DNA from: Cephalotus follicularis
Taxonomy: Eukaryota > Streptophyta > Magnoliopsida > Oxalidales > Cephalotaceae
Direction of reading: 5' to 3'
Assembly: GCA_001972305.1 (NCBI GenBank)
Contig: BDDD01000984.1
Coordinates: 175,753 to 239,752 of the forward strand
Length of the DNA: 64,000 nucleotides
Shown here: piece by piece, positions 221-62,819 of the stretch
Layout: every line of letters begins with the position of its first letter
Numbering within the stretch: the stretch's first letter is position 1
The notes under the pieces: generated by a model
Seen by the model: only the letters and a program-made list of their open reading frames with translations
The model's database searches: none
What the model was told of the DNA's origin: nothing
Translations under genes and position numbers: made by a program

Positions 221-605
221 TTCTGTAGCTGCGGAAAATATTTCTTTAGCTGAGGATAAGACCCTTTTAGCAACCTGACACTATAAATAACGTCTGCCGG
301 TAAAACCGGTGAACTTTAATGGACAAACCAAAGCCTAACTACAATACCAACACATGGACAATTAGTCATCATATGGGATATGCATATACCTCATTCTAAG
401 CAAATATACTCTCTAATTCCCCAACCTAAAATCGGAGAACTTAGTTCCGAGCGTTGACTATGAGGGACCATACTTTTTCTGTAGCTGCAGAAATAGTTTC
501 TGTAGCTGCAGAAACCAGGTCTTTTCGGACCCTTATTAACCTGTATTCTAAATGCGAAATCCGATTTTCTGTAGCTGCGGAATTCCTTTCTGTAGCTGCG
601 GAAAG
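221..605. repeat. Three pairs of 21-bp-spaced near-palindromes, class TTTCTGTAGCTGCAGAAA
   Basis: The near-palindrome TTTCTGTAGCTGCAGAAA (variants GCGGAAA) occurs as three pairs. The AGCT centres lie at 227 and 248, 483 and 504, and 573 and 594, so each pair is exactly 21 bp apart. The spacers are unrelated. Coordinates and spacing are read directly from the sequence; the role is unknown. This is the same arrangement as the GTCGAC-core clusters in the other LTRs of the window but with a different core. Confidence 0.8.
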
Positions 606-784
606 GAGGACCTGTCATCTTAAAGTGTGCTTACTCTTGGCAATCTGGGCCTTGCTGAGATTTTTACTTGGATCTACGTAAGACTCGTATACTAACGTAA
701 CAATGACACTGAACGTAATACCAACGAAAGGATTTTCACAATTTGGTAAAACTTTTCGAACGTACTAATAATACTAATAAACCC

Positions 785-970
785 ATGCTTTTACATATAA
801 ACAGTTTAATGCTTAAATATATAAAAGCTTGACAAACCCCTTCATAAAGGTTACTGTTTCTTGACTAAATTTCTAACTAATACTTTAGTTTCCATTAAAC
901 GCTTTTACATATTTAATACTTATATATATAAAAGCTTTACTAACCCCTTCATAAAGGTTTCTGTCTCTAT
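785..970. repeat. Diverged direct duplication, two copies about 113 bp apart
   Basis: Two copies share GCTTTTACATAT, then a run of TA with TAAAAGCTT, then AACCCCTTCATAAAGGTT. The first lies at about 787-862 and the second at about 900-968. They are separated by a short unrelated spacer and differ by small indels. It looks like a local duplication within LTR-like DNA. Confidence 0.6.
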
Positions 971-1088
971 ACATAACAAAATTCAATACTGAATAACGTT
1001 GAACACCTGCCTTTTCATATAAAATTTGTTTATATAAACTAGTTCATTTATACACATTAACGAACTGAACATGACACCTAACGAACAC

Positions 1089-2930: not shown

Positions 2931-3789
2931 CTTTCCCCTACCTTTGATTTCAAGTTAGGAATCGAAAGTCCACCTCTTTTAGTACTCCAACAGGTCACTT
3001 GAGTCCACAGGTACGCTTTGGCAACTCCCTGGTTCGTCCTGGCAGTTGGTGTGCAAGCTCCAAGCTCCAACAATGGCACACACACACACACTTTTTCTCT
3101 TTCTCTCTTCTCTCTTTCCTTCTGGTGTTATAAAACGAGAGAGATAGGTTGGGAGGGTTATTTTTATGCAGACACCTCCCACCTAACACATTTCTTCTGT
3201 CATCTAACAACCACACCCGAGATCTCTCCCACTTTCTTTCTTTCTGCAATTCTTTTTATTTTCTTTCTTTCCTTTTGCAGGTGGCATATGGCAGGTGAGG
3301 ATTCCTCTGCATGTTCCATGTGAGGACATGTTCTGGGCATCCCTGGCAATACACAGACATGCACAACACGTCAATATGCACTAGAAAAGGCGTTAGGTAG
3401 CCTTTAAACAATCCCCCCTTACATGACGTTCTGCCGATGAAGAACGTGCTGTCCATTCGCACAAAAGGCGTCGACGTCTTCCCTTAGACGTCGATGTCTT
3501 TTCCAGTTGGTAAGAAGGTGTCGATGCTTCCTTCCCGAGTCGACGTGCATGCCCATGCATTCACGTGTGCCCTGGCTCACAAAGGAGTCGACGTCTTTCC
3601 AAAAGACGTCGATGTCGTTCTCCCAGAACGTTGCCGTTTCAAGCTTAACATACACATTCCAATTCCAAGATCATAACTAGGGTTTGTAAGCATCTTTTGA
3701 GTCCAAAACTCAACATTCTCATAAATTCAAGTTTAATGATTACATCATAAATCCAAAATATTACATTCAGGAAAATACCGGGCGTTACA
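2931..3789 (-). repeat. LTR L, start (upstream) half on the reverse strand
   Basis: Read on the reverse strand it starts TGTAACGCCCGG (ending at 3789), the usual start of Tekay-type LTRs in this window. It has the same landmarks in the same order as LTRs J and G: a palindrome cluster, a TTTGCAGGT phrase, a pyrimidine-rich leader (3090-3280 on the plus strand) and a CCCCTACCT...GAGTTAGGAATCG-like block at 2935-2965, shared with B at about 37465. The other end (TGTGACA side) was not found, so the left coordinate is only where recognisable similarity starts. Confidence 0.6.
3466..3620. repeat. Palindrome cluster in LTR L, class AAGACGTCGACGTCTT
   Basis: Five or six copies of a GTCGAC/GTCGATG core occur here, flanked by A-G-A-C and G-T-C-T. 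The ideal form AAGACGTCGACGTCTT is a perfect palindrome. Two pairs are spaced 20-21 bp apart: at about 3467 and 3487, and at about 3588 and 3609. The core is shared with the other LTR families but the flanks are a class of their own. Confidence 0.75.
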
Positions 3790-5650
3790 GTTACGTGGGG
3801 GTACTACCTTTAAACATTAATCCTTTTAAAAATCTTACACATTGATAACATATAATCTTAACTTCTCATAATCTCAAGTGTATTTTACAACCTTCAACAA
3901 TAAGCTTCAAAAACATCATGCTCTCTTTTGAAACCAGTATGCACTATAACAAACAATTCTAGCGTCGTTACACTTATGCATCATCTGTCATATTACAAAT
4001 AGTAGCGGAAAACTAAACTTATTACATCATAAAAATAATTTATGGATAACATAAGTTTTTCAAAACTTCTTTTGCGAACTTCCTCTAAAGCTCGAAATTT
4101 CTTCGTTCATCCATTCCTTGGAAATTTTTTATTTAAAAACAAACATTGAAGGAATGAGCTTAAATAGCCCAGTAAGGGTTTCAAAATCAACATTTCATCA
4201 CATTCATTCTTTTCTATTCATATCTCATGAAATAGAACATTTCATAAACACTGAGGGGTTATATAAACTCAAAGAACCCAACTGAAACTTTTGCTTCACC
4301 GGGGCATTGTGCACTCCCCGATTATTATCCTTACATCACATGCTTGTCCAAGAGCACTCTCCGCTCATAAAATTAATCCCTCTTGGATCTCAATCCAAGA
4401 ATTGTTCATCTTAGTTTGTTACCTGTTCTCATTTCATAAAATCATTTCTCAATACTTTGAGCGATCAGCTCAAAGTATTCATACAAATAGATTCGTACAA
4501 CATTTGTAAAAATGAAATTACATATCGAAACATTCCTTTTCAGAGAAAATGTAAAGCTGTAAAGTTATAGGGGACATTTCAACAATTTTAGAATGATAAA
4601 GATCATAAATTTTCATTGAGAAACGAAGTTGCAATGAATTTTTGAAGTTGCAAATTCCATATGACAGCAGAATATGAGCTATAAATTTGAACACAGCTTT
4701 TCATCAAGAAATTGGCAGAAATTTGAAATTAATGAAACATAACAATTGTATAAGACATCGTATAGTTTTCAGAACAATCAACCGTTCCAAATTTCATCAA
4801 GAAATGAAAAATTTATGATTAAAACAATCTGCTACATCATTTCCAGAAATATCAGAAGAATACTTTGGCATAAAAGGGTAGAATTTTCCTTACTTTTGCT
4901 TCAATATTCTTCTCTTCACTTGAAATTATCTCAGCAAAACTCAGCATAAACAACTGAATTCAGGCCATCTACACATCTATAAATACGTTGAATGGAAGCT
5001 TGGAGGGTAACTTTCCTCCTATGAGTCACCATGCCACCTATTGGCATGTGCTCATAAAACCCATGTGCTGACACACACACTCTCTCTCCAAATTGATGAC
5101 ATTTGTCCTTATTCATCATTCCAACATCAAAATATCTGATTCCCTTTCTCCCTAGCTTTACACATGTCTCATAATTAATATAATTAATTCACAAAGTTCC
5201 AAAAAGCTAGATTTCCTCAACTGGTCTGCAGTTCAAAGCGCTGGCGCTTTGTACTAAAGTGTTGTCGCTTACGTATTATACCAATATTCTTTAACTCATT
5301 CACAAGTTAAAGCGTTGGTGCTTGGGGTAAAAAGTCACCGCTTTAAAGATGTTGCCCTGGATGAAAACGCACTGGTTTAAAGCTCCGCTATAAGGAGTTC
5401 AAGCGTCGTCGCTTGACAACTTAACCGTTGCGACTTTAACAAACCGTCATCACTTTAAACAATACTGTCGATGCCTTACTCTATCCAGTCGATGCTTTCT
5501 TCCTTTCTGTCGACACTTTCATCACAACATATGATACCAAACGTGCAACACAACGTACCATGCAAAATATCATACTCCACAACACATCACTCTTAGAGAA
5601 AGTACATTTTCATAAACAACAACTTAAATGAAATTTTTTTGATCATTACA
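3790..5650 (-). repeat. LTR M, reverse strand, probable
   Basis: The right end at 5650 reads, on the reverse strand, TGTAATGATCAAAAAAATTT, a plausible LTR start. Within it (5233-5520) is a cluster of AAAGCG(C/T)(T/G)GGCGCTTT-type palindromes, the first two spaced 21 bp apart (5240 and 5261). The left end abuts LTR L at 3789, so L may have inserted into M or the two may simply be adjacent; no target duplication was recognised. There is no gag or pol coding sequence, and none of the open frames has a known motif. Confidence 0.45.
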
Positions 5651-14648: not shown

Positions 14649-17235
14649 TGTCACACCCCGTTTTCCACATGACATTCATATATGGTGATATCAGATATAA
14701 ATAATAATCCACAATTCATAATAACAAATTTCAAATAATATAAGCGGAAGCATCCCAATTGCCGGATTATAAAATTATCCGCACGCAGCCCATACTACGT
14801 GCTTATACAATACTAGCAAAATTATTCTTTTACATATTAGAAATGTAAAGATACAACAACGGAGTGTGAGCATTCATTTCAATAGAAAACAAATCGAATA
14901 ACAACCTTAACTTAACAAAAGAGAAGCTCTCCAATAAAGCTTCAGTAGCACCTCTCTAGACGCCTTCACTTAATCTGAAATTGTAGGGGGTTAGCCGTTG
15001 TCCTCACTTGGCTAAGTAGGAATAAAGCATGATAAAGAATATATAACTGTAACATGCATGTCAGTTATCTGAAATAGCATATATATAAGTATTTCAAAAT
15101 ATATAAGCAACCAATCCAAGTGGCCATAGACTATACAATTCTGGAATACCACACAAGGGTAAAATCAATCAATACAGTGGTTTGGGTGTCACATGTCGCT
15201 AACTCCTAGCACCAACTGTGCACCACCTAACTATCACCCTGCACTCCGAAGATGATAGATCCGGTCAATTCTACCGGCAATTAGCGGGCAGGTAACAATC
15301 AGGATCTGCATTGCAGATAAGTGTGGTGGAAGCTCTAGCCAACTTCTGGCACATAGGACCACCCCGTAGCCAGTGATGTCTCCTATCACTCGACTAACGA
15401 CAATAACATAGACAAACAATTCAATCAATTCAATAGCAATATTACATATATCAAGTATGCAATATAAAAGTTGTTTTCTTTAGAAACAATTTTTCAGTTC
15501 AGTGACCGTACCTCTCGTTGGAGGAAATGGTATTCAGTACAATAACAATGCCTCTCATGGAGAAAACCAGTAGTTCATTTGACAGTAAGTTTTCGTTTTG
15601 AAACAATAAGAAGAAAATCCATAATTTGTGCTTATAGCACTAATTGTTCCAATCATTAACTTTTAAGGGTAACAATAGTATTTATGAACACTTATCAGCT
15701 TTACAGAATGTATAACCGCATCAATAACAGCAGCGGAACAACCAATTCAAGGGTTCAACAAGATGTTAGCATACCCTAGTCATTCTCGCACAACTTATCA
15801 TAATGAGTGCATAAGTTGTTTACCTTGTGTAATATAACTACCTAAGGCCAGGATTGAATGTTACAATCATCCCATGTGGAGGTAAGGGTAATTACACACA
15901 ATTATAAGCCTAACAGCAGCTAATGTTAGCATTTTGTCACTTAACAGTCGGCTGTTCATAAGAATTGCTGGCTGTTTTAATTAGGTAGTCGACTATTTTT
16001 CCTTCACAGTGGACTGGTTATATTGAGTAGTCGGCTGTTGGGGTTAAACAATCGACTGTTCTTGCCCAGAAACGCCATGCAGTAGTTTAATAAAACTGAG
16101 TATGCACTACTCACAATCCAATTTCAATCAATCCATAACATGCAATCATACAGAAAACATCCTGGCATGATATACATATTATATCTTCTTAAGCATGTCA
16201 AAACCCCTACCTCAATTGCTATCATGGAATCAAATTGAGGTGATTCCTCTCTTTAAGTTCCAAGTCCTTCACCCAACTCAATCCTCCAAAATCCAGTAAT
16301 TAATCTATATGGTTGCATGTGTACAGGTTTAGATATCAACACAAGTACGTTCATCTAGTTATCTAGTCTTGATAACAACAAAATCGGAACCAGAAGCCTA
16401 CAATCAAATTTTCTAAGTTCCATTTTTCCATTCCCTAACTAACCCAAATTCAGTCTCCAATTGAAAGTTTATTACTCTTGATCATGTTTAATCAGGGGTT
16501 ATAGGTCGAACATGCTACTGTTTAACTTATAAATTCAACAATAACAGAACTTGGAGCTTACCAGGAATCAAAGCTTCAACTCCTCCTTTGATCTCCAATC
16601 CTTCAACATGCATCCAAGAATTTCTCCAGCAAGAGTTCCTCTATCCTCAGTGTTTCTAACTCTCCTTTCCATTCCCCAGCAACTGATATAAGGGTTTCAA
16701 GTCTTAGAACTCGTCAGATTCCATTAACTTAGCCTTCCCTCTTTTCTCTTCTCTCTCTCACATGCACCTCTTCTCACTCTTTTCCCTTCTGTTTTGCAGG
16801 TTGCAGGTGTGCAGGTCTTGCATAATTAATAGAGGGCATCCAAGGCATCACCCTTGCATGTTGTTACAGCTGGTGGCAGGCATACAACACCTGTCCATTG
16901 CATTCCACGCCTTTGCCCTGTCTCACGCCATGCATAGACACTTGTCCTGTGCCATACCAGTCGACTGTATTTACTTGGCAGTCGACTGTCCACCCCGTGC
17001 ATTAACCAGTCGACTGTTCCCCTGTGACAGTCGGCTCTTCCTTCATAAACTAGACAGTCGACTGTTACCCTGTTACAGTCAGCTGTAGGTGGCTGGTCTT
17101 GGTTTGTTAAGCTTATTCCCACACTTAAAATCCACAACCACAATTCATATAACCATTGGACATTAAAATTCAAGTAAGTGCATATTTTATTCATCAATAG
17201 TACAATATACATGAATTGAAATTGCGGTTATTACA
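14649..17235 (-). mobile_element. Solo LTR J (G-like family) inserted in the H LTR
   Basis: The forward start is TGTCACACCCC and the end is GCGGTTATTACA, mirroring the start and end of the LTRs of element G. It is flanked by a perfect 5-bp target duplication CAAGG (14644-14648 and 17236-17240). There is no internal sequence, so it is a solo LTR left by LTR-LTR recombination. At 2.59 kb it is nearly twice the length of the G LTR (1.4-1.5 kb), although both termini match. It carries two palindrome clusters of class CAGTCGACTG, at 15944-16066 and 16958-17093, where the G LTR has the other class. The open frames at 16762-17212 are read through the second cluster and are not genes. Confidence 0.93.
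15944..17093. repeat. Two CAGTCGACTG palindrome clusters in J
   Basis: The first cluster (15944-16066) has about five copies and the second (16958-17093) about six, of (A/G)GTCG(A/G)CTG. Adjacent copies are usually about 20-22 bp apart. The roughly 900 bp between the clusters includes the pyrimidine-rich leader. The same two-cluster layout is seen in A and C. Confidence 0.75.
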
Positions 17236-20750: not shown

Positions 20751-20791
20751 GGATCTTTATATCTCTAACAATTAAGAATAATGAGATAACC

Positions 20792-20805: not shown

Positions 20806-21842
20806 TGTTGGAAACTTATGGCAACCTTTAACTAGGACAAGTAAAACAATTTGTTTGCGGAAACAACAAATTAAGTTATGAAAATAAACAAGCACACACG
20901 ACAAATAAATTAGAGAGATAAGGGATAGAGAGTGTGCAAACAAATTTATAGTGGTTCGGAAAATCCGTGCCTACGTCCACTTTCTCAAGAGCCCCTTGAG
21001 TTTCCACTAGAATCCACTAGCAACCTTTGATTTTCGGCTTACGGGTGCAAATCAAAGAAACCACCTTACACTTGAATTTGGGTTCCGGGTGCAAATCAAT
21101 CAAACACCTTACAAGGGTTCACTCCCCTCTTTTACAATGGATGATGGAAAAGGATTTGTGTTGTGTTTACAATAACCTCTTAAAGGTTGGATATGAAAGT
21201 GTAAACTAGTTGCAAGCTTTGGATATGAAAGTGATAAACAAAAGCTTGATGTTCTTTCTCTTTGTAAGGGTGCAAGTTGAGATATTGAGATTGGATGTTC
21301 AAATGTTGTTCCTTGGTCACTTGAATCTTCATCCTTGGCTTGTATTTATAGCATTATTTAGTTTCTAGCCGTTGGTGATGAAATAGAGCCGTTGGTGAAG
21401 TCTTTGGAAATTGTTTGCACAAAAGTTGGCTCTTTAAAACAAGTTCTGACATTGTTCCAGCCGTCCAAAGCGTCGACGGTATTGCCTTAAGCATCGGCGC
21501 TTAGGTTACCGTTAGGAGTTAAATTTGAATTTTCTCGTTTGGACGCTGGCGCTTTAATGTGGGAGTTGACCGTACGCATAAAGCGCTGACGCTTTACTTC
21601 TAAGCGTCGCCGCTTTGAGTACTTCAACTAATTTTGCGCTCCACTGGTTTTAACGGCAGACTTGCTCTTCTCAGGCGTCGACTTTTTGCCATAAAGCGCT
21701 GACGCTTTGATTGTGACCGTCGGCGCTTTGCTCTATTTCTGCACTTCTTTATTTTGCTTATTTCTTTTCTTGCACAGAAAGTAGCAAAGTTAAATGCAAA
21801 TTTATAATCATTAAAACTTAGGATTAAGACTAAAAGTCAACA
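20806..21842 (-). repeat. Upstream (5') LTR of K
   Basis: 1037 bp with TGTTGG and CAACA termini. It contains AAGCGTCGACGCTT-class palindromes at 21472 and 21493, and 21677, 21698 and 21719, each step exactly 21 bp. This is a copia LTR, yet it carries the same palindrome class as several gypsy LTRs here. Confidence 0.92.
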
Positions 21843-22179: not shown

Positions 22180-22620
22180 TAGGTGTCGACGCTATCATGC
22201 TAGGCGTCGACGCTTAGCGCTGTTCTACCATATTGCGCTTGAAAGTTATGCATTGACGCGTTCGCCCACTTTCCTTTGATCGTTGCTAGATTCTATGTTC
22301 TCGTTAACGCATTGCGCTACAGTGCAGTATTGCGCGTCGATGTGCCATGGGCACATCAATGCTGCCCGTTGATGTGTTCACTGATTAGCGCACAGAAACG
22401 CGAAGAAACACATATCGTGTCAACTGATTCATCCACAAGGCATCAAGTGGTTGCCTTGGCATCGACAACACTCTCTCAAGTGTTGACTGTTAAGGGACAA
22501 AGCACCAATGGTTTGCGTAAAGCGACAGCTGTCAGCCTCAAGCATCGACTGCACTCTCAAAGCGTCGACTTCTACCACAGAGCGTCGACTGGTCACCCTC
22601 AAGGCGTCGACCCTTTACTT
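22180..22620. repeat. Palindrome cluster in the H LTR, class AAGCGTCGACGCTT
   Basis: Copies of (G)GTCGACGC include a pair at about 22182 and 22203 (21 bp apart). Many degenerate copies follow (GTCGATG, ATCGACTGC, GTCGACTTC, GTCGACTGG, GTCGACCC) up to 22610. The frame at 22276-22623 is read through this cluster and is not a gene. Confidence 0.7.
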
Positions 22621-42098: not shown

Positions 42099-44222
42099 TT
42101 GATCAGTGAATTCGTGGTATTCTTGCTGTGTTTTCTGTGTCCTTAATATCACTACAGGTTAGTAAATTCGTTTCCTCCAGTGATAATTTTGTTCTAATGC
42201 CATGAATTTAGTTTTGTGCTCCTTATGTCCTTTGGTTTCAATTCCCATATATAAATGTGTTGTCATTGTGTTAATAGGATTGTCAACATGTTTTATACAC
42301 ATAGTTATGTCTCAAACTGGTTGTATAACATCTAAAACTGATAAAAGACAGAATTTGGACATAAATATGCATTGCCTTCTTGTTTCCCTTTTGTAAGTTA
42401 ACCCACTGTCAGGTTGTTTTCTTGTCAATTCTGTGTTTTTATGTCACCTACAAGTCATATATGATCATATGTTTATGTCCATATGTCTTTGGTTTAATGT
42501 AGAAACCATTTGAACCATTTTCAGTAGTGAATTGTCGAATTTCCAATTGTTCTCTCACCCAGAAAGTCGGCTGTCTCTATGAACAGTCGACTGGAATGGA
42601 TGAGTAGCCGACTGCCATATGAATGCAGTCGACTGCCTTCGGTTGAGTAGTCGACTGGAGGTATGAACCAATCAACTGCCTGCACTTTAGATTGAGTAGT
42701 CGACTGGACCTTATGAATAGTTGACTATCTTGCTTCCCCAGTCGACTGGAGCCCTGTTTTAGTCGACTGTTTTGCACAGAAATGTACTGTTTTCAACTGT
42801 TTTAATCCGTTTGATCCTCGAATCGATCCGAGTCTTCACCAAACACTGTTAAGAGTCTGTTTAATACTTCTAATGTGTTTTAGACTCTTATACATATGAT
42901 TTCGAATGTCTTTTTAGATTGATTGTGATTCAAGTGAAGTTTGGTTTAAGTCATCTATTCGTAAGTACTTTGTGAGCGCATAATGTACGGATTTTCTGTT
43001 CCTTGGCTATCTGATGTTTTGAACTGAAAATAGTTTTGTAATGTTTCTTCGTTTATGAAATCAATGATGTTTTATGATTTTGATATGTTTTGAAATTAAA
43101 GTTGGTTTGACATTTTAAATGATTCTGACTTTATCCATACGATATGAAATGATACGATATGTTATGATACGATATGTTATGATACCGTTGTGAGCGGTTT
43201 TCGAATATGTTATGTGAAAACATATGTTATGTGATTTTGAATTGATTTTGATAAATCAATTATTTTTGAAATAAATACTGAGTATTGTACCCACCTATGG
43301 GGCGTATCATAGGCACGTCGTAGGCCTGGCACGGGGACGTGACACTTCCGTAGCAGTGTGATTAGTCTACGGCGTCTCTGAGTGTATGAACAAATCCCAT
43401 GAGGTGGATTTGTGGATCCGCTATGTATGATAGAGGCGTATGAATCGATTCTAGTTTATGTGATATGAGGTGAATTATCAATTATGTGATCCGAGGTGTG
43501 ATCGGATATGTGTATGTGAGAATTGACCGGTGTAGTGCCGTACACTTCAATTCTAGTGGGCATGTGGAATTAGCACCTCCCTTGCCAAATTTATGATTTG
43601 TGATATGTATGTGGCTCAGTATGTTTTATGAACTATGATTTGTGATTTAAGATTGTGAATCGAAAATAATGTTTTAAAATGTTCCGTAATTGTTTTGAAA
43701 GATATGCAATTATTATTTGAATATGATTAAACTGTTTTTAACTGTTTAAGATTTTTGTTACGTATTTATTAAAATATTAATGTTTTTAAATTACCGTTTA
43801 CTGTTTTATTTCCCTTATCCGTACTGAGGTTTGCTCAGCCACGTTTTTGTTTCCATGCGACAGGTTTTCAGGAGCAGCGGGGGAAAGTGTGATTGAGTGA
43901 TGACTACCTTATGTCTTTGGATCCCTAGGAGTGTGATCCTTGTGTTTTATGTTTAGTGGTCAAACTATGAAACTTATGATTTATGTTTTAAATTGGAACT
44001 GGATTATATTCTGAGTTTTTCCGTAACTGAGTAATATGATTAATTGTTAAGTTTTTAAGTTTTAATGCTATGATAAGACTGCCACATTTTTGGCTGTATT
44101 TGGTTAATAAATGAATGTTATGATTTGTTATGTAATGTTATGATCATATAAGATATGTTATGATAAGTAATGTTGTGTATGATATGACCCTGTGACGACT
44201 CCCGCCGTCCGGTGGTGTTACA
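42099..44222 (+). repeat. 5' LTR of D, truncated at its start
   Basis: It aligns with 49293-51393 of the 3' LTR. It ends GGTGGTGTTACA. It contains a palindrome cluster (42566-42770), a 15-bp repeat GATACGATATGTTAT (43140-43185) and the ACCCACCTATGGGGCGTA block (43290). The short frame at 42202-42396 recurs exactly in the 3' LTR (49396-49590) but has no known domain. Confidence 0.93.
42566..42770. repeat. Phased palindrome array in the 5' LTR of D
   Basis: Motif positions are 42566, 42586, 42607, 42628, 42650, 42671, 42699, 42720, 42741 and 42762, giving steps of 20, 21, 21, 22, 21, 28, 21, 21 and 21 bp. The best copies are CAGTCGACTG. The 3' LTR has the matching array at 49760-49965. Confidence 0.88.
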
Positions 44223-48734: not shown

Positions 48735-51393
48735 TACCAGTCCAATTATGGGTATGAAATGCTATGTTGGGTTTGGGTTTATTTTATCAAAATTTATTTC
48801 ACTAAAACAATTTATTTTTACTTTATAAATCTTTTTTAATTCATTTTAATTTAATTAATTTAATTATTTTTCTTTTCCTTTTATTTCTTTTTTTTCCTTT
48901 CTCCTTTATTTCCTTTTCTTCTTATTTCCTTTCTTCCTTCTTCCTTCTCCCGAATCCCTTCTCTCCACCATCAATTACACTCCTTTTCAATCTCTTTTTC
49001 CATTCTAACTCCCCACAAATCGTCTCCTTTTCCTTATGTGGGCAGATTTGGTCTCCCCTTTTTCCTTTTGTTGTGCCATTGCCATTCTATAATTGCCTCC
49101 TTCTTTTTTTTTTGCCTTATGCACTGCCGAATTCTGCCTGTTAGTGTGTGATAATCTGCCGTGTAATTCGTTCTTCAAAATTTGAAGAGGTAATCTCAGT
49201 CCTTTTGTGTTTCTTTGGATTGAATTCTTCTAGTTTGTTAAGCATGTATGTACTCCTTGTTTTGTTTTCTTGTCCTCCTTCTGTACAATTGTTTGATCAG
49301 TGAATTCGTGGTATTCTTGCTGTGTTTTCTGTGTCCTTAATATCACTACAGGTTAGTAAATTCGTTTCCTCCAGTGATAATTTTGTTCTAATGCCATGAA
49401 TTTAGTTTTGTGCTCCTTATGTCCTTTGGTTTCAATTCCCATATATAAATGTGTTGTCATTGTGTTAATAGGATTGTCAACATGTTTTATACACATAGTT
49501 ATGTCTCAAACTGGTTGTATAACATCTAAAACTGATAAAAGACAGAATCTGGACATAAATATGCATTGCCTTCTTGTTTCCCTTTTGTAAGTTAACCCAC
49601 TGTCAGGTTGTTTTCTTGTCAATTTTGTGTTTTTATGTCACCTACAAGTCATATATGATCATATGTTTATGTCCATATGTCTTTGGTTTAATGTAGAAAC
49701 CATTTGAACCAGTTTCAGTAGCGAATTATCGAATTTCCATCTGTTCTGTCACCCAGAACAGTCGGCTGTCTCTGTGGACAGTCAGCTGGAATGGATGAGT
49801 AGTCGACTGCCATATGAATGCAGTTGACTGCCTTCGGTTGAGTAGTCAACTAGAGGTATGAACCAGTCGACTGCCTGCACTTTAGATTAAGTAGTCGACT
49901 GGACCTTATGAATAGTCGACTGTCTTGCTTCCCCAGTCGACTGGAGCCCTATTTTAGTCGACTGTTTTGCCCAGAAATGTACTGTTTTCGACTGTTTTAA
50001 TCCGTTTGATCCTCGAATCGATCCGAGTCTTCACCAATAACTGTTAAGAGTCTGTTTAATACTTCTAATGTGTGTTAGACTCTTATACGTATGATTTTGA
50101 ATGTCTTTTTAGATTGATTGTGATTCAAGTGAAGTTTGGTTTAAGTCATCTATTCGTAAGTACTTTGTGAGCGCATAAGGCACGGATTTTCTGTTCCTTG
50201 GCTATCTGATGTTTCGAACTGAAAATAGTTTTGTAATGTTTCTTCGTTTATGAAATCAATGATGTTTTATGATTTTGATATGTTTCAAAATTAAAGTTGG
50301 TTTGACATTTTAAATGATTCCGACTTTATCCATACGATATGAAATGATACGATATGTTATGATACGATATGTTATGATACCGTTGTGAGCGGTTTTCGAA
50401 TATCTTATGTGAAAACATATGTTATGTGATTTTGAATTGATTTTGATAAATCAATTATTTTTGAAATAAATACTGAGTATTGTACCCACCTATGGGGCGT
50501 ACCATAGGCACGTCGTAGGCCTGGCACGGGGACGTGACACTTTCGTAGCAGTGTGATTAGACTACGACGTCTCTGAGTGTATGAAAAAATCTCATGAGGT
50601 GGATTTGTGGATCCGCTATGTATGATAGAGGCGTATGAATCGATTCTAGTTTATGTGATCTGAGGTGAATGATCAATTATGTGATCCGAGGTGTGATTAG
50701 ATATATGTATGTGAGAATTGACTTGTGTAGTGCCGTACACTTCAATTCTAGTGGGCATGTGGAATTAGCGCCTCCCTTGCCAAATTTATGATATGTGATA
50801 TGTATATGGCTCAGTATGTTTTATGAACTATGATTTGTGATTTAAGATTTGTGAATCGAAAATAATGTTTTGAAATGTTCCGTAATTGTTTCGAAAGATA
50901 TGCAATTGTTATTTGAATATGATTAAACTGTTTTTAACTGTTTAAGATTTCTGTTACGTATTTATTGAAATATTAATGTTTTTAAATTACCGTTTACTGT
51001 TTTATTTCCCTTATCCGTACTGAGGTTTGCTCAGCCGCGTTTTTGTTTCCATGCAGCATGTTTTCAGGAGCAGCGGGAGAAAGTGTGATTGAGTGATGAC
51101 TACCTTATGTCTTTGGATCCCTAGGAGTGTGATCCTTGTGTTTTATGTTTAGTGGTCAAACTATGAAACTTATGATTTATGTTTTAAATTGGAATTGAAT
51201 TATATTCTGAGTTTTTCCGTAACTGAGTAATATGATTAATTGTTAAGTTTTTAAGTTTTAATGTTATGATAAGACTGCCACATTTTTGGCTATTTTTGGT
51301 TAATAAATAAATTTTATGATTCGTTATGTAATGTTATGATCAGATAAGATATGTTATAATAAGTAATGTTATGTATGATATGATGGTGTTACA
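48710..51393 (+). repeat. 3' LTR of D, start deleted
   Basis: The integrase frame passes directly into LTR sequence at about 48710: TGACTGATACCAG at 48730 matches the E LTR near 55480 in reverse. The polypurine tract and roughly the first 120 bp of the LTR, judged against E, are missing. A pyrimidine-rich leader lies at 48840-49110 and a palindrome array at 49760-49965. The end lacks about 25 bp present in the 5' LTR (CCCTGTGACGACTCCCGCC region). Confidence 0.9.
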
Positions 51394-52545: not shown

Positions 52546-54847
52546 TGTAACGCCCAGGGTTTTTCATTAAAGTGTAATACTGTATTCCCAATGTAATTTA
52601 CGCTTGAATTAATGAGAACCATGTTTTTCCCTCTTTTGTGTGTTGAAAGGTTGCAAGAAAGTGTGTGTTGGTGTGTTTTTGTACAGGGGGAAGCCGACTG
52701 CCACAGGGAGGCAGCCGACTGGACCCCTTGTTGAGGGACAACAGCCAACTGCTGTGAGGAAGCAGCCGGCTGGTGTGGGTGTCAACAGAAACAGCCGACT
52801 GCCAAGTCAAGGCAGTCGACTGCCAGGCACCAGACAGCCCACGTGTTGTCAGCCTTGAAGTGACAAAAAGTGGGAGTTTTGGCTTATTTGGGCAGATGGC
52901 AGAGAGAGGGGCCGGGTTCCTCTCTTAAAAACACAAGCTTTCCTCTCCAAATCTCCATCTTTCTCAGTGAATTCAAGAGTGTTTGGGAGTAGAGAAAATG
53001 GAGTGAAAGTGTGTGTGTTGTGGATCTAAGGAGCTTCGTGTTGAACCGTAGACTTGGTGGCTTGGACCAGTGGAGGAACCGGAATAGTGGGAGTTACTGA
53101 ACGAGCTAGGGAGTGAAAAAGCCTCGGATTTCGACTTAAAGAGGTGGATTGCAACTCCTAACTTGGAGTCCTCAGGTAGGGGGAAAGTCGTTTTTGCACT
53201 TAATTTCAACCATAAATGTTTTCCGTGAAATGAAATGCATGTTTGTGTTATATTGTGAGCCTGAAATGTGTTGTTACATAAATGAGTTGTTTTTGGTTGT
53301 GTTGGGTGTGTGTTGGGGTTTGTATAGCCGCTGGTTTTCTACACCTGCAACAGAATCCAGCCGACTGCCCGTGTTGGGCAGTCGACTGCTCAATGGGTCC
53401 AGCCGACTGTTCTTGGGAGGCCAGTCGACTGCCCATGTGTGTGTCTCTAGGAAGTGCCTGCAGAGGTTGTGTAGTCGACTGATGTAGGTCAGCAGCCGAC
53501 TGGTGGGTGTGGACAGCCGACTGTCCTGAGGAACAGCCGACTATCAAGTGTGGGCAGCCGACTGTCGAGAGAGACAGTCGACTGTCTGGTTGTGTAGTCG
53601 ACCGCCTGGGTTGGGCAGCCGACTGTTTTGAGGGGAACAACCGACTGCCAGTGGGAGGCAGCCGACTGTCAGGGCCTGTTTTGCCTTGTGAACATCTGTA
53701 TGCATCGTGTATTGTGATGAGCTGCTTTGTAAAGCTTTATGAACTGTTTTGAGCATTGTGATTATTGAGTTTGAACTGTTATATCATCTTTCTGGAAGTG
53801 CATTGTAGTTTAATGAAAATCATTACTTTACACGAAAATGTATGTTTGAGAAAATATATATTTTCGAACCGTGAAAATGAGTTCCAAAACATTGTGAACC
53901 GAGTTTTATGATATTGAGAACCGAGAACCGTGACATCGTGAAAATGAGTTTGTTTTCAAGTATTTGTTTTATAAATTACTTGGAAAACTGTTTTGAGCAT
54001 CGAGATGACTGTGATTGTGATTGAGTTGACGGTGGTTTGCTGATTGAGATTTTGATTGTGACCGTACTAGTTGCGTGGAGGAGATGCCAGCGATGACTAG
54101 TGGTTGGGTTGACTCAGGGGCCAGGAGTTGGCTGGGTGACTCATTGTACCGTGACATGCTTCATACCATCCGGAGTCGGGGCTGATGACAGGAGTACGAC
54201 GTCGGGGCCAGGAGTTGGCGACGCTCTTCGTACCCACTGTGAACCGTGAACCGTGAACCGGGTATTGTGTAGTCCTTTGGACTTGTCTGAGACCGTGAAT
54301 CGTGACATTGTGACACCGTGACATCGTGGTTGGCATATATATATATATATATGCATCGAGATATAGTATGTACTGCATCATATTGCATTCATGCTTGGTT
54401 TTGTTGATCTTATGTTGCTTTGATGACTTTCGCCGAGTGAGGACAAAGGCTAAACCCCTACTGTTACAGATTGAAGTAGCGTTTTGGATATCGCCGGGCA
54501 AGGCTATGTCAGGATGGGATGCGACAGGGTTTACTTTGCTTTAAATGTTTTGTAAAGTAGCGTACTTAAAACATGATGTAGTTTGGATTATTGTACTAAT
54601 GTTTTGCTGTTGTTGATCGACTTTTGGATCATGCTCCGTTGTGGGCTTTTTAACAATGCTTTTCAGTTAGTGTGTTCGGGAATCATGTAGTATGGGATGC
54701 ATGGTTCCGTTTGCTTTCAGCTTATAGTTAAATGCTTCCGCAAGTTTGATGTTTAATCAAAAGTTTTATGTTTTACCGTTTTCTGTATAGGCTGGATGTT
54801 TGTTAAATTTCCATGTTGTATGTTGTGAATGCAAGCGGGGTGTGACA
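52546..54847 (+). repeat. 3' LTR of A
   Basis: 2302 bp, TGTAACGCCC to GGGGTGTGACA. It retains a segment (about 54146-54336) deleted from the 5' LTR, with three GTGAACC units at 54239-54262, and two extra palindrome units at about 53509-53550. Palindrome clusters lie at about 52690-52830 and 53357-53670. Confidence 0.96.
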
Positions 54848-56170: not shown

Positions 56171-57576
56171 TGTAATAACCGCAATTTCAATTCATGTATT
56201 TTGTAACGAACGATGAATAAAATGTATTGTTTGAGATGTATTCTTACCGTCGACGCTTTGAGCCCTGACACGTGCACGAACGCACAGTTGAAGGCTGAGT
56301 TAAGGAGCCTAACTGTCGACCTTTAAACGCCCAACATTGACGCTTAAAGGCGTATAAGCGTCGACGCCCATGAGATAACCGGCGACGCTTTAGACGTGTT
56401 ATGGCGCAAAGATGCCTGTCAGTTGGAATGAAATGGCAGAGTTGAAATGATGGAACATAGGCATGTGTCCATAGACGTGTTGGCCATGCAAAAGAGGCCT
56501 TACCAGCGATTGATAGTGCCAGACCAAGGAGTCTTGCATGCCTCTTTCACCTGCAACCTGCAAGACTTTGAGAAAGAAACAAAAAGAAAGGGAGAGATGC
56601 ATGTGAGAGAGAGAAGAGAAAAGAGGGAAAAATGTTATACAAATTGCTATTTTCCTCTTTAGAGGTATTGCTACTGTTTTGTTCTCCAAGAGAACCACTA
56701 TTGAAATGTTACTGTTCCTCCAAATATGAGATGCACAGTTATTGAATTGTTACATGTTTCTAAAAGAAAACAGCTACTATATTGCATATATATATGTAAA
56801 ATTGTTATCGAATTGATTGTCTATGCTTAATGTTGTTAGTCGAGTGATGGCAGAGGTCACTGGCTATGGTGGTGGTCCTAGGAGCCAGGAGTTGGCTAGA
56901 GTTCCACCCAAACTTATCTGCCTTGCAGATCTTATGTGTTAAACTACCCGCTAACGCCGGCCGTAAATGGTACCTGATCTATCATCTTCGGAGTGTACGG
57001 TGATAGATAGGTGGTGCACAGTTTGTGCTAGGAGGTAGTGACATGTGACACCCAAACCACAATATGAATTTATTGTACCCTTGTGCGGTATTCTTGCATT
57101 GTACTGTCTATGGCCACTTGGCATGATTGCGTATATATTGGAATATATATATATGTCATTTCATATGCATATTTACATTTGTAGATTCAATTACATGCTT
57201 AACCTTCCTACTTAGCAAGTGAGGACAACGGCTAACCCCTACAATTTTAGATTAAGCGAATATGTACGGGAAGTGTTGCTGAAACTTGGAGAGCTTCCAT
57301 TATGCTTAAGGTTGTTATGTTTTTATGATGTACTGTATTTGTAATGAACGGTTCACACTCCGTGTTGTTGTTTTACTTTCCTTGTGTAAAAGGATTATGG
57401 TCGGATTGTACATGCACGTAGTATGGGCTGCGTGCAGATGACTTTTATTTTATAATCCAGATATGAATGCTTCCGCTTATTTTGTTGAATTATTGAATGA
57501 GAATACTGGATTATATTTATTTCTGATATCACCTTATATGCTTGTCTATAATGGGATTGAAAGGCGGGGTGTGACA
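56171..57576 (+). repeat. 5' LTR of G
   Basis: 1406 bp, TGTAATAACC to GGGGTGTGACA. Relative to the 3' LTR it lacks about 110 bp near 56245. It has an AAGCGTCGACGC-class palindrome cluster at 56247-56395. The paired short frames near 56399-56698 recur in the 3' LTR and have no domain. Confidence 0.95.
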
Positions 57577-58417: not shown

Positions 58418-61260
58418 TTGGAGGTGAATACTCCAACTAGCGATATCTTGCTGACCAATGAGATAATAGATAATAGTGCGATCACGATAGTGAGAGTTCA
58501 GCATTGCACTATTGTCGAGGACTGCTGCTATATCAAAATCTCCATACCGAATGGCTCCTGCTGAACTTAAGGAGTTGAAGACTCAATTGCAGGATTATCT
58601 TGATAGGGGCTTCATCAGACCGAGTGTATCACCATGGGGAGCACCGGTTCTGTTTGTAAAAAAGAAGGATGGATCGATGCGTCTATGCATCGATTACAGG
58701 CTGCTAAATCAGGTGACTATGAAGAACAAGTATCCCCTGCCACATATTGAGGAATTGTTCGACCAATTGCAAGGTTCAACTGTATTCTCCAAGCTTGACC
58801 TGAGAACAGGTTACCATCAACTGAGGATCAGAGAAGGTGATGTGGAGAAGACCGCATTTCGAACCAGATATTGTTGTTTGGTTTGACAAATGCTCCTACA
58901 GCCTTCATGTGTCTGATGAACAAAGTGTTTCAACCTTATCTTGACCAGTTTGTCGTTATATTCCTGGATGACATCTTGATTTATTCAAAGAGCATTGAGG
59001 AACACATGCAGACACTACGGAAGGAATAGCTATACGCCAAATTCAGCAAGTGCGAATTTTGGTTGGATCATGTGACTTTCCTAGGTCACATTGTGTCGAG
59101 TGAGGGATTGTCGGTGGATCCTTCGAAGATAGAGAGTATTGTTGATTGGCCCTAACCGAGAAACGTTACTGAGGTTCGTAGTTTCTTGGGATTAGCTGGC
59201 TACTACCGAAGGTTCATCAAAGGTTTTTCGAAGCTTGCTGCACCTTTGACATAGTTGACTCAGAAGAAGTCCAATTTTGTGTGGGATGATTCTTGTGAGG
59301 CAAGTTTCCAAGAGTTGAAGAGTCGGTTGATTTCGGCTCCAGTGCTGGCATTACCGGAAGGCAATGAGGTCTTTACTGTTTATACTGATGCTTCTGGAAA
59401 AGGACAGGGATGCGTTCTTATGCAACATGGTAGGGTGATTGCATACGCATCGAGGAAGTTAAAGTCGTACGAGGAAAATTATCCCGTACATGATCTTGAG
59501 TTGGTGGCCATAGTGTTTGCTTTGCAGAAATGGAGGCACTACCTCTATGGTGCTCAGTTTGAGATCTTTACTGACCATAAAAGTTTGAAATATTTGTTTT
59601 CCTAGAAGGAACTCAACATGAGACAGAGGCATCGGGTGGAATTCTTTAATGACTACAACTGCAACATTCAAGACCACCCGGGGAAGGCGAATGTAGTGGC
59701 TGATGCGCTGAGTCGTAAGTCAATGATTGCTGGAGCAATGGTCTCACAGTGGAAGCTATTGGAGGAATTTCAGAGATGGAATCCATTCATGGTTTCCCAT
59801 GGAGTTATTGTGGCAAGTCTAAAAGCACAACCAGAACTTCTGGAACGTATTCTTACTGCTCAGTATAGTGATACTGAGTTATGGAGTATTCGCGAGAACC
59901 TAGACACCGATTCTGAGTTCTCCATTCACACTGATGGCATATTGAGTTTCTGAGGGAGGATATGTGTTCCGGGTGATGAGAGTATCAATAATGAGCTACT
60001 GCAACAAGCTCACAAGTCAAGGTACAGTGTTCACCCTGGAAGTTCCAAGATGTGGCATGACATGAAAAAGAACTACTGGTGGAGTGGTATGAAGAGAGAG
60101 ATTGCTGAATATGTAGCGAGATGTTTGACCTGCCAGAGAGTGAAGGCTGAACATCAAAGACCTGCGGGACTACTACAATCGTTACCAGTAGTGGAGTGGA
60201 AATGGGAGCATGTGACCATGGACTTCGTGTCGAGATTTCCGAGGTCACGGGATCAGCACGAAGCAGTGTGGGTTGTGGTGGACAGACTCACTAAGTCTGC
60301 TCATTTTCTTCCGATGAACATGAACTATTCCATCTAGAAGCTTGCTCGATTGTATATCCGGGAGATAGTGAAATTGCATGGAGTGCCGGTCAGTATTGTT
60401 TGTGACCGAGATGCTCGATTTACCTCGAGGTTCTGGAAAAAGTTCCAAGCAGCTATGGGAACAACATTGAACTTCAGCACTGCATTTCACCCACTGATTG
60501 ACGGACAGTCCAAGCATACAATTCAGACTCTGAAGGATATGCTATGGGCTTGCATGATTGATTTTACTGGAAGTTGGGAGGATCATCTGGCACTGATTGA
60601 GTTCTCCTACAACAACAGTTTTCACACCAGCATTGGAATGGCTCCCTATGAAGCTTTGTATGGGAGAAAGTGCAGATCACCTATCTATTGGGACGAGGTG
60701 GGTGAGAGACAAGTGCTGGGACCGGACTTCGTACAAAAGACTACTGATAAAGTAGAGATAATCAAGAAGAGACTGCTAGCTGCACAAAGTCGGCAGAAAA
60801 GTTACGCCGATATCAGAAGGAGAAAACTAGAGTTCGAGAAGGGGGATCATGTATTCCTGAAGATCTCACCTTCCAAGGGGATACGCCGTTTTTGCCTCAA
60901 GGGGAAGTTGGCTCCAAGGTATATTGGACCGTACGAGATACTGGAAAGAGTGGGGGATGTGGCATATCAGATCGCACTACCGCCTAGTTTGTCGGGCGTG
61001 CATAACGTATTTCATGTTTCAATGTTACGGAAATACGTACCGACCCATCTCACATATTGAGCTACAACCCTGGATTCATTAGTCCTACATTCACATATGA
61101 AGAAAGGCTGACGAGGATCATGGATCGAATGGAAAAGGTGCTAAGGAAAAAGACTATTCCTATGGTAAAAGTACTGTGGCATTTTCACGGAGCAGAGGAA
61201 GCTACGTGGGAGCGGGAAGATGGAATGATGGAGACATTTCCCCACTTGTTCGGAATGTAA
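58418..61260 (+). pseudogene. pol of G: RT, RNase H, integrase and chromodomain-like end, broken
   Basis: RT starts at about 58515 ([14 protein letters not shown] at about 58660). A deletion near 58870 removes the stretch before the LTNAP motif and shifts the frame. The catalytic motif is FLDD at about 58963. RNase H has [10 protein letters not shown] (about 59380). Integrase has WWSGMK and CLTC (about 60075-60130), MDFVS, CDRDARF and the ERT-equivalent region (here SKHTIQTLKD, so the catalytic Glu is replaced by Lys). The GPY/F motif and a terminal EATWERED...FPHLF domain follow. Stops at 59027, 59153, 59252, 59603, 59951 and 60335 share one frame and fit C-to-T changes. A 1-bp deletion lies near 61040. 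Confidence 0.9.
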
Positions 61261-61288
61261 AGGCTAAATTCGAGGACGAATTTTCTTT

Positions 61289-61301
61289 AAGGATGGGGGA
61301 A
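61289..61301 (+). other. Polypurine tract of G
   Basis: AAGGATGGGGGAA lies directly before the 3' LTR. Confidence 0.88.
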
Positions 61302-62819
61302 TGTAATAACCGCAATTTCAGTTCATGTATTTCGTAACCAACGATGAATAAAATGTATTTTTTGAGATGTTATGTTGGTTACCCTTTTGAATTGAGCGAT
61401 GTTGGAATAAAATTAGTAGATGAGAAACTAATGAAATAAATCCTGGTGCCAAACCGCCGACGCCTAACTTCTTACCGTCGACGTTTTGAGCCCTAACACG
61501 TGTACGAACGCACAGTTGAAGGCTGAGTTAAGGCGCCTAACTGTCGACCTTTAAACGCCCAGCATCGACGCTTAAAGGCGTATAAGCGTCGACGACCACG
61601 AGATAACCGGCGACGCTTTAGACGTGTTCTGGTGCAAAGATACGTGTTAGTTGGAATGAAGTGGCAGAGTTGAAATGATGGAACATAGGCATGTGTCCAT
61701 AGACGTGTTGGCCATGCAAAAGAGGCCTTACCAGCTGTTGATAGTGCCAGACCAAGGAGTCATGCATGCCTCTTTCACCTGCAACCTGCAAGACTTTGAG
61801 AAAGAAACAAAAAGAAAGGGAGAGATGCATGTGAGAGAGAGAAGAGAAAAGAGGGAAAAATGTTATACAAATTGCTATTTTCCTCTTTAGAGGTATTGCT
61901 ACTGTTTTGTTCTCCAAGAGAACCACTATTGAAATGTTACTGTTCCTCCAAATGTGAGATGCACAGTTATTGAATTGTTACATGTGTCTAAAAGAAAACA
62001 GCTACTATATTGCATATATATATGTAAAACTGTTATCGAATTGATTGTCTATGCTTAATGCCATTAGTCGAGTGATGTCAGAGGTCACTAGCTACGGTGG
62101 TGGTCCTAGGTGCCAGGAGTTGGCTAGAGTTCCACCCAAACTTATCTGCCTTGCAGATCTTATGTGTTAAACTGTCGGCTAACGCCGGCAGTAAATGTTA
62201 CCTGATCTATCATCTTCGGAGTGTAGGGTGATAGATAGGTGGTGCACAGTTTATGCTAGGAGGTAGCGACATGTGACACGCAAACCACACTATGAATTTA
62301 TTGTACCCTTGTGCGGTATTCTTGCATTGTACTGTTTATGGCCACTTGGCATGATTGCGTATATATTGGAATATATATATATATATGTCATTTCATATTA
62401 ACTGTCATGCATTTTTACATTTATAGATTCAATTACATGCTTAATCTTCCTACTTAGCCAAGTGAGGACAACGGCTAACCCCTACAATTTCAAATTAAGC
62501 GAAGACGTACGGGAAGTGTTGCTAAAACTTGGAGAGCTTCCATTCTGCTTAAGGTTGTTATGTTTTTATGATGTACTGTACTTGTAATGAACGGTTCACA
62601 CTCCGTGTTGTTGTTTTACTTTCCTTGTGTAAAAGGATTATGGTCGGATTGTACATGCATGTAGTATGGGCTGCGTGCAGATGACTTTTATTTTATAATC
62701 CATATATGAATGCTTCCGCTTATTTTGTTGAATTGTTGAATGAGAATGCTGGATTATATTTATTTCTGATATCACCATGTATGCTTGTCTATAATGGGAT
62801 TGAAAGGCGGGGTGTGACA
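61302..62819 (+). repeat. 3' LTR of G
   Basis: 1518 bp, TGTAATAACC to GGGGTGTGACA. It retains the segment missing from the 5' LTR (about 61367-61475), including further GCCGACGCC/GTCGACG palindromes. The palindrome cluster spans 61453-61615. Confidence 0.95.

Follow-up and report, generated by a model that had tools for sequence, protein, structure and literature searches.

Palindrome arrays with a 21-bp pitch in the LTRs of Ty3-gypsy and Sirevirus retrotransposons of Cephalotus follicularis: candidate sites for a dimeric DNA-binding protein

The window, by which we mean the whole 64-kb stretch of Cephalotus follicularis DNA that was analysed, contains arrays of short palindromes situated in the LTRs of several Ty3-gypsy families and of one Ty1-copia Sirevirus (Table 1), which bears out an earlier sequence-only reading of this DNA in which gypsy and copia elements were both said to carry them. 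RT and integrase matches in gypsy order were identified by Pfam in elements B and D, and pieces of them in element E; a chromodomain match was obtained in element B alone and was weak (19.5 bits, cut-off 25.1). This match, zinc knuckles and integrase parts were the only Pfam domains of a DNA-binding kind in 20 ORFs, among which no extra DNA-binding reading frame was found. The hallmarks given for Sireviruses are a PPT of AGGGGGAG followed by an AT/TG attachment site, and a junction of the form CA/A(T or G)TGG/TATCAGAGC (PMC2829016). In copia element I the 3' LTR junction reads AGGGGGAG-AT-TGTTG, with AGGGGGAG present in four exact copies (terminal copy counted) and one variant within the 720 bp read upstream of the 3' LTR, and the LTR/PBS junction on the minus strand reads ...CCAACA-AGTGG-TATCAGAGC. 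By its PPT, attachment site and PBS junction, copia element I is a Sirevirus. Its 288-aa ORF was considered as a trans-factor and rejected, being a gag tail as judged by the names of its relatives.

Table 1. Palindrome arrays in the 64-kb window and the LTRs that carry most of them (numbers separated by commas are spacings in bp)
Feature	Position	Strand	Description
Left-edge block	220..604	.	Three pairs of TTTCTGTAGCTGCAGAAA-like palindromes, every pair exactly 21 bp apart
Array J2	3466..3640	.	AGACGTCGACGTCT-like; 20,30,19,48,21,22; in a minus-strand LTR starting at 3789
Array L	5401..5520	.	Degenerate AAGCGTCGACGCTT-like; 22,19,21,21,21; sites partly by eye
LTR H	14671..17235	-	Gypsy, E clade; left limit approximate
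Array H2	15945..16067	.	Second CAG-type array of LTR H
Array H1	16958..17085	.	CAGTCGACTG type; 21,28,21,27,21
Copia element I 5' LTR	20806..21842	-	Sirevirus-like; gag-only remnant between LTRs
Array I	21468..21728	.	In copia LTR; 7 sites like AAGCGTCGACGCTT; all four short spacings exactly 21
Array c4	22181..22615	.	GCG-type sites; 21; 22,40,20,20,22
Array G	25979..26164	.	CAG type; minus-strand D-clade LTR; 20,22,21,28,21,22,22,20
Gypsy element B 5' LTR (B5)	26561..28655	+	Arrays 26706-26847, 27375-27644
LTR F	32931..35463	+	D clade, apparently solo; GCG-type arrays 33064-33205, 33946-34078
LTR C	35463..38643	-	B clade by other parts; GCG-type array 36872-37190, loose spacing
Gypsy element D 5' LTR (D5)	42100..44222	+	Array 42564-42769
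Gypsy element D 3' LTR (D3)	49294..51393	+	Array 49759-49964; 20,21,21,22,21,28,21,21,21
Gypsy element B 3' LTR (B3)	52546..54847	+	Arrays 52690-52822, 53357-53668
Gypsy element E 5' LTR	56171..57576	+	GCG-type array 56245-56390
Gypsy element E 3' LTR (E3)	61302..62819	+	GCG-type array 61452-61618; 21,66,21,24,21

The palindromes have dyad symmetry and fall into two main words, CAGTCGACTG (CAG type) and AAGCGTCGACGCTT (GCG type), which have the core GTCGAC in common and differ in their flanks. Sites number 20 in B3, 13 in C, 11 each in H and F, 10 each in D3 and G, seven in copia I and six in E3. The sequence-only reading had listed spacings for D that agree with our measurement, as do its three left-edge pairs at exactly 21 bp; those it gave for an LTR named A agree with B5, save that one spacing of 42 bp there had been split into 21 + 21 by way of a weak site. 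Two arrays (5401-5520 and 15945-16067) lie beyond its set. The array it reported in LTR C is present but loose, with only 3 of 12 spacings at 20-22 bp, and in LTR K (9199-11941) a GTCGAC-type array is absent. AGCT-centred palindromes, which it had placed beside those of the GTCGAC kind, do stand 21 bp apart in the left-edge block but are not a general class, as one weak pair (L138) was the only such pair outside the left edge across 20 sampled stretches.

The phasing itself is clear. The window contains 62 copies of GTCGAC where 6.7 are expected, and a motif-blind scan counted 27 cases of two similar fuzzy palindromes standing 20-22 bp apart, with both LTRs of each LTR pair included, against a mean of 0.4 and a maximum of 2 in 20 shuffles. 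With one LTR kept per pair and at most one mismatch to GTCGAC, there are 43 pairs at 20-22 bp, seven at 17-19 bp and one at 23-25 bp, and none of 21 other palindromes has a comparable spacing peak in the window (top ratios: GACGTC, 8 vs. 2.4; AGCGCT, 4 vs. 1.2). The shuffles and the comparison with other palindromes rule out chance clustering. In consensus site-calling, 50 of 77 neighbor spacings are 20-22 bp, three gaps of >110 bp being left out. A coding origin of the step (seven codons) was rejected, since steps of 20 and 22 bp are common and there is no peak at 18, 24, or 27 bp (2, 1, and 3 pairs, vs. 29 at 21 bp). Spacings of 27-30 bp form a recurrent second class in the window (12 of 95), with two at 31-33 bp. 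The proposal that every site lies on the same DNA face is weakened as a strict rule because the second spacing of the window is about 28 bp (2.7 turns, no whole number), not 31-32 bp.

The sequence-only reading had named a genome-wide 21-bp peak as the result on which its proposal depended, and that peak is present: pairs of CAGTCGACTG number 25,896 at exactly 21 bp vs. 47 at 25 bp, and pairs of AAGCGTCGACGCTT at 21 bp number 97 vs. 0 for the reversed pattern. There were 36 different spacers in the first 50 listed 21-bp pairs of CAGTCGACTG and 32 among 50 listed for AAGCGTCGACGCTT. The genome-wide peak and the varied spacers rule out repeated copying of a single young family. Among the 64 palindromic hexamers, GTCGAC was the most enriched across 20 stretches of 10 kb (76 vs. 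14.4). This 200-kb sample had 41 pairs at 21 bp and 3, 2, and 4 at 18, 24, and 27 bp; 19 and 23 bp were raised (12 and 6 pairs), no third-turn peak was clear (31 bp, 0; 32 bp, 2), and there was likewise no clear peak across 27, 28, 29, and 30 bp (4, 4, 4, and 8 pairs).

LTR clade does not predict which word an array uses. Either word occurs among the members of each of three gypsy LTR clades (B with CAG and C with GCG; D and G with CAG and F with GCG; E with GCG and H with CAG), and in all three different words stand at the same LTR position. The LTRs with two arrays (B, H, and F) have mainly one word in both, in 3 of 3 cases, although there are two CAG-threshold matches within the GCG arrays of F. 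The word changes need not be independent, since the arrays of C and E have 58 bp in common at 81%, spacers included. The 14-bp word AAGCGTCGACGCTT is common to the copia LTR and several gypsy LTRs, despite the lack of any BLAST match between the copia LTR and the gypsy LTRs. In the copia LTR, array I ends 117 bp upstream of TATAAATA, and two further TATAWAW words are present; the D LTR has no TATAWAW downstream of its array, and only in the copia LTR is a TATA clear at promoter distance.

For one pair of LTR families, the sites have changed more slowly than the spacers between them. Between D and G, transversions affect 2 of 94 site positions, 24 of 87 spacer positions and 52 of 344 flank positions, a contrast that comes from this one pair and from an alignment possibly anchored by the sites; when the site mask was slid along the alignment, the minimum fell at offset 0. 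This agrees with the assertion that it is mainly the palindrome and its pitch that are kept and not the spacers. D and G also have one 28-bp gap in common, and G is without one whole unit of D. Between the paired LTRs of a single element, the arrays change no more slowly than their surroundings, with mismatches at 21/442 array positions vs. 67/1647 elsewhere in B, 15/221 vs. 58/1867 in D and 9/156 vs. 50/1247 in E. Such decay is expected of dead copies but lends no support to a binding-site reading.

The sequence-only reading had also said that it knew of no published account of such arrays, which does not stand as worded because palindromic repeat boxes (RM boxes) in Sirevirus LTRs were described by Bousios et al. 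in 2010 (PMC2829016). According to that account, RM boxes are many copies of a family-specific LTR palindrome upstream of the TATA box, with divergent flanks; they are recognized by at least 8 copies per element, a CGG-CCG core and CpG islands (the RM of Tnd-1 is without CGG-CCG), they are claimed for Sireviruses only, as against classic copia, and no single factor that binds them had been identified there (PMC2829016). The arrays described here resemble RM boxes in being multi-copy LTR palindromes with dyad symmetry, in lying shortly upstream of the TATA in copia I, and in that the Vitis word CGGTCGACCG contains GTCGAC (PMC2829016). They differ in that their core is GTCGAC rather than CGG-CCG, and in three features not met in the RM-box account as consulted, namely their 21-bp pitch, their presence in Ty3-gypsy LTRs and one word being common to copia and gypsy elements of a single host (PMC2829016). 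As to CpG, the observed/expected ratio is 1.35-1.84 in arrays J2, L, I, F, C, and E, 0.94 in array c4, 0.79 in array J1 and 0.37-0.76 in the arrays of B, D, G, and H. Among the literature matches listed, as represented by titles and the starts of abstracts, we recognized no account of gypsy palindrome arrays or of a 21-bp pitch. The pitch, the gypsy hosts, the word common to both superfamilies and the change of word are new relative to RM boxes. Palindrome boxes in LTRs, presented until now as a mark of Sireviruses, thus also occur outside that group.

On balance, we expect the arrays to be multimerised candidate sites at which many LTR retrotransposons would bind a dimeric, sequence-specific protein of the host, or a pair of related proteins. 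That the host supplies the factor is plausible; we infer this origin, as well as the protein itself, its state as a dimer or tetramer and a role in activation, not repression. One dimer would be bound per palindrome, and the 21-bp step, at about two helical turns, would enable adjacent dimers to touch, with a step of about 28 bp also tolerated in the window. That the two words have the same core and different flanks is what a pair of related proteins, or one family binding in two modes, would lead one to expect. The element would benefit from such docking through activation of the LTR promoter or through shielding from silencing, and arrays may grow by duplication of 21-bp units followed by drift of the spacers. 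For few families of plant retrotransposons is it known what activates them or how they escape silencing. The pitch offers a testable physical constraint. Promoter-proximal factor sites at or near 21 bp are familiar from the SV40 21-bp repeats and the 21-bp LTR repeats of HTLV-1, animal viruses in which the copies are few, the factors are others and the repeats are not known to be palindromes of the GTCGAC kind.

Alternatively, a retrotransposon or some other mobile element might encode the binding protein, which would have an anti-silencing role like that of VANC on VANDAL DNA transposons and be exploited in trans by gypsy and copia families. VANC targets likewise form dense, non-coding arrays of short words that are family-specific and evolve by tandem repeats (PMC5735166, PMC10398659), and here the word differs between families within one clade. 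We nevertheless consider this origin unlikely: the 20 ORFs supply no extra frame and the one copia ORF without a known role is the gag tail, and "palindrom" is absent from the main text of PMC5735166. VANC words are 9 bp long and in one orientation, "spacing" is likewise absent from that text, and VANC is encoded by its own element. A host repressor or methylation-recruiting factor that recognizes retrotransposon promoters, so that the sites serve the host, is very improbable, since an element would gain nothing by keeping and multiplying the sites of its own repressor, yet here the sites persist and one word is replaced by another at the same position. In its favor, every GTCGAC-kind palindrome has a CpG at its center, 9 of the 11 D-G site mismatches are transitions (about five, by eye, at that CpG), and CpG-type changes between paired LTRs account for 11 of 45 mismatches in arrays vs. 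26 of 175 outside, a mild sign of methylation.

We regard two further readings as improbable. The palindromes may act in RNA, with hairpins in read-through transcripts feeding small-RNA production. Bousios et al. in 2016 reportedly proposed such a hairpin-to-small-RNA route, linked to silencing, for a palindrome-rich cis-region of maize Sirevirus LTRs, in copia elements only. Consistent with this, folding gave z <= -2.5 in six of nine array pieces (range -0.95 to -5.93) and -1.07 to 0.42 in three control LTR pieces; however, good folding is expected of any self-complementary word that is used repeatedly, the piece at -0.95 is the copia array, whose pitch is the most exact of all, hairpins require no fixed 21-bp pitch, and the paired spacers that this reading predicts to be kept are what varies most. 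Alternatively, the arrays may be 21-bp tandem repeats made by slippage and copying, their pitch a relic under no present constraint. Identity between spacers within arrays is 0.28-0.43 against a null of 0.25-0.31, short of an ordinary whole-unit tandem repeat; it is slightly raised in B3 (0.35 vs. 0.29, a value reached in none of 1000 shuffles), G (0.33 vs. 0.25, p 0.01) and D5 (p 0.043), with no clear excess in D3 (p 0.15), B5b (0.07), and H (0.06). These likenesses, the whole D unit missing from G, the 58-bp piece shared by E and C and the decay of dead copies fit a relic, but plain repeats would retain spacers as long as palindromes, whereas between families the palindromes persist and the spacers diverge faster than the flanks, different words have the same pitch, and spacers in the genome listings are mostly different. 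The relic reading is already disfavored.

Returning to a docking protein, we can put forward, as a tentative and rather doubtful extension, that one regulator family, of host or mobile-element origin and with at least two palindrome specificities, serves many or most of the LTR retrotransposons here as a common docking system, gypsy and copia elements having converged on its sites and 21-bp pitch and switching between its members. If so, the "tropism" of retrotransposon promoters would be a trait readable across the genome. With tens of thousands of paired sites at one pitch, and two related words across two superfamilies, one pull-down could be enough to identify the factor. A pattern scan of IMG/VR gave 0 matches for three AGTCGACT sites and 118 matching stretches for three GTCGAC at steps of 20-22 bp, so that a GTCGAC triple alone is not LTR-specific; most among the 80 of these 118 matches listed are 48 bp long, mostly 21+21, and are presumed, from the pattern matches alone, to be codons repeated in frame in GC-rich viruses.

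The window is made up of plant LTR retrotransposons nested in one another (see table), and the palindrome GTCGAC occurs in it 62 times, against 6.7 expected from dinucleotide composition. A motif-blind scan of the window, in which both LTRs of each pair were counted, returned 27 pairs of similar fuzzy 10-bp palindromes lying 20-22 bp apart, compared with a mean of 0.4 and a maximum of 2 pairs in 20 shuffles. With one LTR per pair and up to one mismatch to GTCGAC, there were 8, 29, and 6 pairs at 20, 21, and 22 bp, 7 pairs at 17-19 bp and 1 at 23-25 bp; additional peaks in GTCGAC-pair spacing lay at about 28, 42, 49, 63, and 70 bp. Consensus site-calling in hand-chosen array regions placed 50 of 77 site spacings at 20-22 bp, three gaps of >110 bp being excluded. 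When the arrays were completed by hand, 15 in all with each LTR pair represented once, 68 of the 95 spacings that did not exceed 60 bp fell at 20-22 bp, and 46 were exactly 21. These figures are biased towards 21 because a few weak sites were fitted to the lattice by eye; moreover, a binomial test has no meaning here, the sites and arrays being mutually related. A further 12 of the 95 spacings measured 27-30 bp and two 31-33 bp. Every one of the 15 arrays had at least two spacings of 20-22 bp, the lowest proportion being that of array C (3/12).

The two main array words are CAGTCGACTG (CAG type), which often appears as CAGCCGACTG in gypsy element B, and AAGCGTCGACGCTT (GCG type). By its own terms the sequence-only reading would have been refuted had no genome-wide 21-bp peak appeared, but such a peak was found: in the 1,577,397,061 bases searched, CAGTCGACTG-N11-CAGTCGACTG (21 bp) occurred at 25,896 places versus 89 for the reversed pattern, whereas CAGTCGACTG pairs at 25 bp occurred at 47 (control, 0). 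The corresponding GCG pattern, AAGCGTCGACGCTT-N7-AAGCGTCGACGCTT (21 bp), was present at 97 places (control, 0). The first 50 hits listed for each word contained 36 different spacers for CAGTCGACTG pairs and 32 for AAGCGTCGACGCTT pairs; the 36 group into 11 to 15 loose clusters and are therefore varied yet not fully independent.

In a 200-kb sample (20 stretches of 10 kb, one fixed position in every tenth contig, C3 to C193, including 13,481 N), GTCGAC topped the enrichment among the 64 palindromic hexamers (76 vs. 14.4), and exact GTCGAC pairs at 20-22 bp numbered 14 vs. 1.6. Allowing one mismatch gave 18, 41, and 8 pairs at 20, 21, and 22 bp, distributed over 12 of the 20 stretches, with 12 pairs at 19 bp and 6 at 23 bp. 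Applied to the same sample, the motif-blind scan found 25 pairs vs. 0.7, of which about four to six were not GTCGAC-like. The 28-bp mode of the window had no clear peak in this sample (4 pairs at 28 bp, 8 at 30 bp). A codon-frame origin of the 21-bp step was ruled out, there being no peaks at 18, 24, or 27 bp in the window or the sample. GACGTC was also enriched about 3.2-fold in the sampled stretches (46 vs. 14.4), perhaps deriving from words like those of the J2 array.

Retrotransposon components and other repeats of the window
Feature	Position	Strand	Content
Gypsy element B	LTRs 26561-28655, 52546-54847	+	gag, protease, RT, RNase H, integrase matches
Gypsy element D	LTRs 42100-44222, 49294-51393	+	gag, protease, RT, RNase H, integrase matches
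Gypsy element E	LTRs 56171-57576, 61302-62819	+	RT and integrase pieces
LTR F	32931-35463		apparently solo
Element C	3' LTR 35463-38643	-	
LTR piece G	~24.8-26.2 kb	-	limits partial
LTR piece H	14671-17235	-	limits partial
LTR K	9199-11941		
Copia element I	LTR 20806-21842	-	
Element I, between LTRs	18448-20805		
27-bp tandem repeat	17797-18201, 21843-21911		AGGTCATTTAACCTTCTATGATATTCT-like
J2 array	3466-3640		AGACGTCGACGTCT-like sites; limits of its LTR partial
Left-edge pairs	220-604		TTTCTGTAGCTGCAGAAA, unrelated to main words
Tandem arrays in element C	40200-40299, 40506-40704		51-bp and 30/60-bp

LTR sequence outside the arrays defines three gypsy clades, B with C, D with G and F, and E with H, the B-C and D-F links being confined to short blocks (71-87% and 75-83%, respectively). 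Both words are present in each clade: CAG in B and GCG in C; CAG in D and G and GCG in F; GCG in E and CAG in H. Off-type matches are limited to one each in C and E and two in F, and the LTRs with two arrays (B, H, and F) have mainly a single word across both. Array positions match between LTRs of one clade. The arrays of E3 (the 3' LTR of E) and H start 150 bp past the LTR start (that of the 5' LTR, E5, starts at 74, E5 being without ~97 bp), those of B3 and C end 149 and 163 bp ahead of a common homologous block, and those of D5 and F end 521 and 526 bp ahead of theirs. C and E have 58 bp of array in common (81%, spacers included), implying that arrays are old or able to move between LTR clades. 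The CpG observed/expected ratio was 1.46-1.84 in the AAGCGTCGACGCTT-type arrays of I, L, F, C, and E and 0.94 in that of c4 (L and c4 being further arrays in the window); the CAGTCGACTG-type arrays, at 0.37-0.76, are not CpG-rich.

The D and G LTRs, which are 65-71% alike in alignment, provided a comparison of sites with spacers. Transversions affected 2 of 94 site positions, compared with 24 of 87 spacer positions and 52 of 344 flanking ones, and the site figure was higher at every shift when the site mask was moved 1 to 10 bases in both directions; transitions made up 9 of the 11 site mismatches. This contrast comes from a single pair of families and is an upper estimate because the sites themselves may have guided the alignment. 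Within the LTR pairs of single elements, arrays were somewhat quicker to change than the remainder (B, 21/442 vs. 67/1647; D, 15/221 vs. 58/1867; E, 9/156 vs. 50/1247), consistent with dead copies decaying neutrally.

Our best reading is that the palindromes are putative sites of a dimeric host DNA-binding protein that would assemble on a 21-bp pitch, and that the elements would exploit for activation or protection. The binding factor might possibly be encoded by an element, but none was found among 20 ORFs scanned. The sequence-only reading had further proposed that every site lies on the same DNA face; because spacings of 27-30 bp form a second mode in the window, helical phasing is not strict and this proposal is weakened, and it is possible that a flexible bridge accommodates the longer step.

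The palindromes could instead act as RNA hairpins, consistent with unusually good folding in six of nine array pieces; however, the most regular array, that of copia element I, does not fold unusually well. Slippage explains growth of the arrays, as suggested by a D-G difference of a whole unit and by spacers that are mildly similar in B3, G, and D5, but slippage alone cannot account for palindromes outlasting spacers between families.

The LTR of element I has seven AAGCGTCGACGCTT-like sites, with all four short spacings exactly 21 bp. A TATAWAW word, TATAAATA, follows 117 bp downstream of the array end; the LTR contains two more such words. On sequence grounds element I is a Sirevirus by published signs, namely AGGGGGAG and AT/TG at the 3' LTR, additional AGGGGGAG copies, and a CA/AGTGG/TATCAGAGC junction. 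Its LTRs are ~2.4 kb apart, gag is present, and no pol match was found among the ORFs scanned between them; element I is apparently a Sirevirus remnant retaining gag alone. Close relatives of its gag are numerous in Cephalotus records (501 matches, 120 listed), and among the matches listed for this frame every legible species name was Cephalotus, a few names being incomplete. Since the 27-bp tandem repeat is found on either side of it, element I was probably inserted into a satellite-like array.

According to the portions available of Bousios et al. (2010; PMC2829016), 13 Sireviruses have repeated, family-specific palindromic "RM boxes" with a CGG-CCG core in all but one, mostly grouped upstream of the TATA box within the upper LTR half; the boxes form CpG islands. 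The authors did not find a single binding factor and termed the boxes Sirevirus-specific relative to classic Ty1-copia; these portions contain neither RM-box spacing nor gypsy cases. The array of element I is of this same known kind, and the earlier statement that no description had been published therefore fails for it; the gypsy counterparts, the word common to copia and gypsy, and the 21-bp pitch are additions of this window beyond the literature found. VANC anti-silencing proteins, as described in the available parts of PMC5735166 and PMC10398659, bind dense arrays of 9-bp words that evolve via tandem repeats.

For the gag-protease frame of B, the first 17 matches listed in a protein search (best 120 of 320) were all Cephalotus follicularis, at 63-84% identity, and those to other plants were mostly at ~30-35%. 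Together with the matches of element I, this points to C. follicularis or a near relative as the probable host. LTR K, to which a palindrome array had been ascribed, has no GTCGAC array in 9199-11941; by eye, GGATGC(A/G)CCAGTGCCAT-like words recur there at irregular steps. Positions 12299-12815, which encode a gag domain, are 65% alike to 13245-13715 in inverted relative orientation, with ~430 bp between them.
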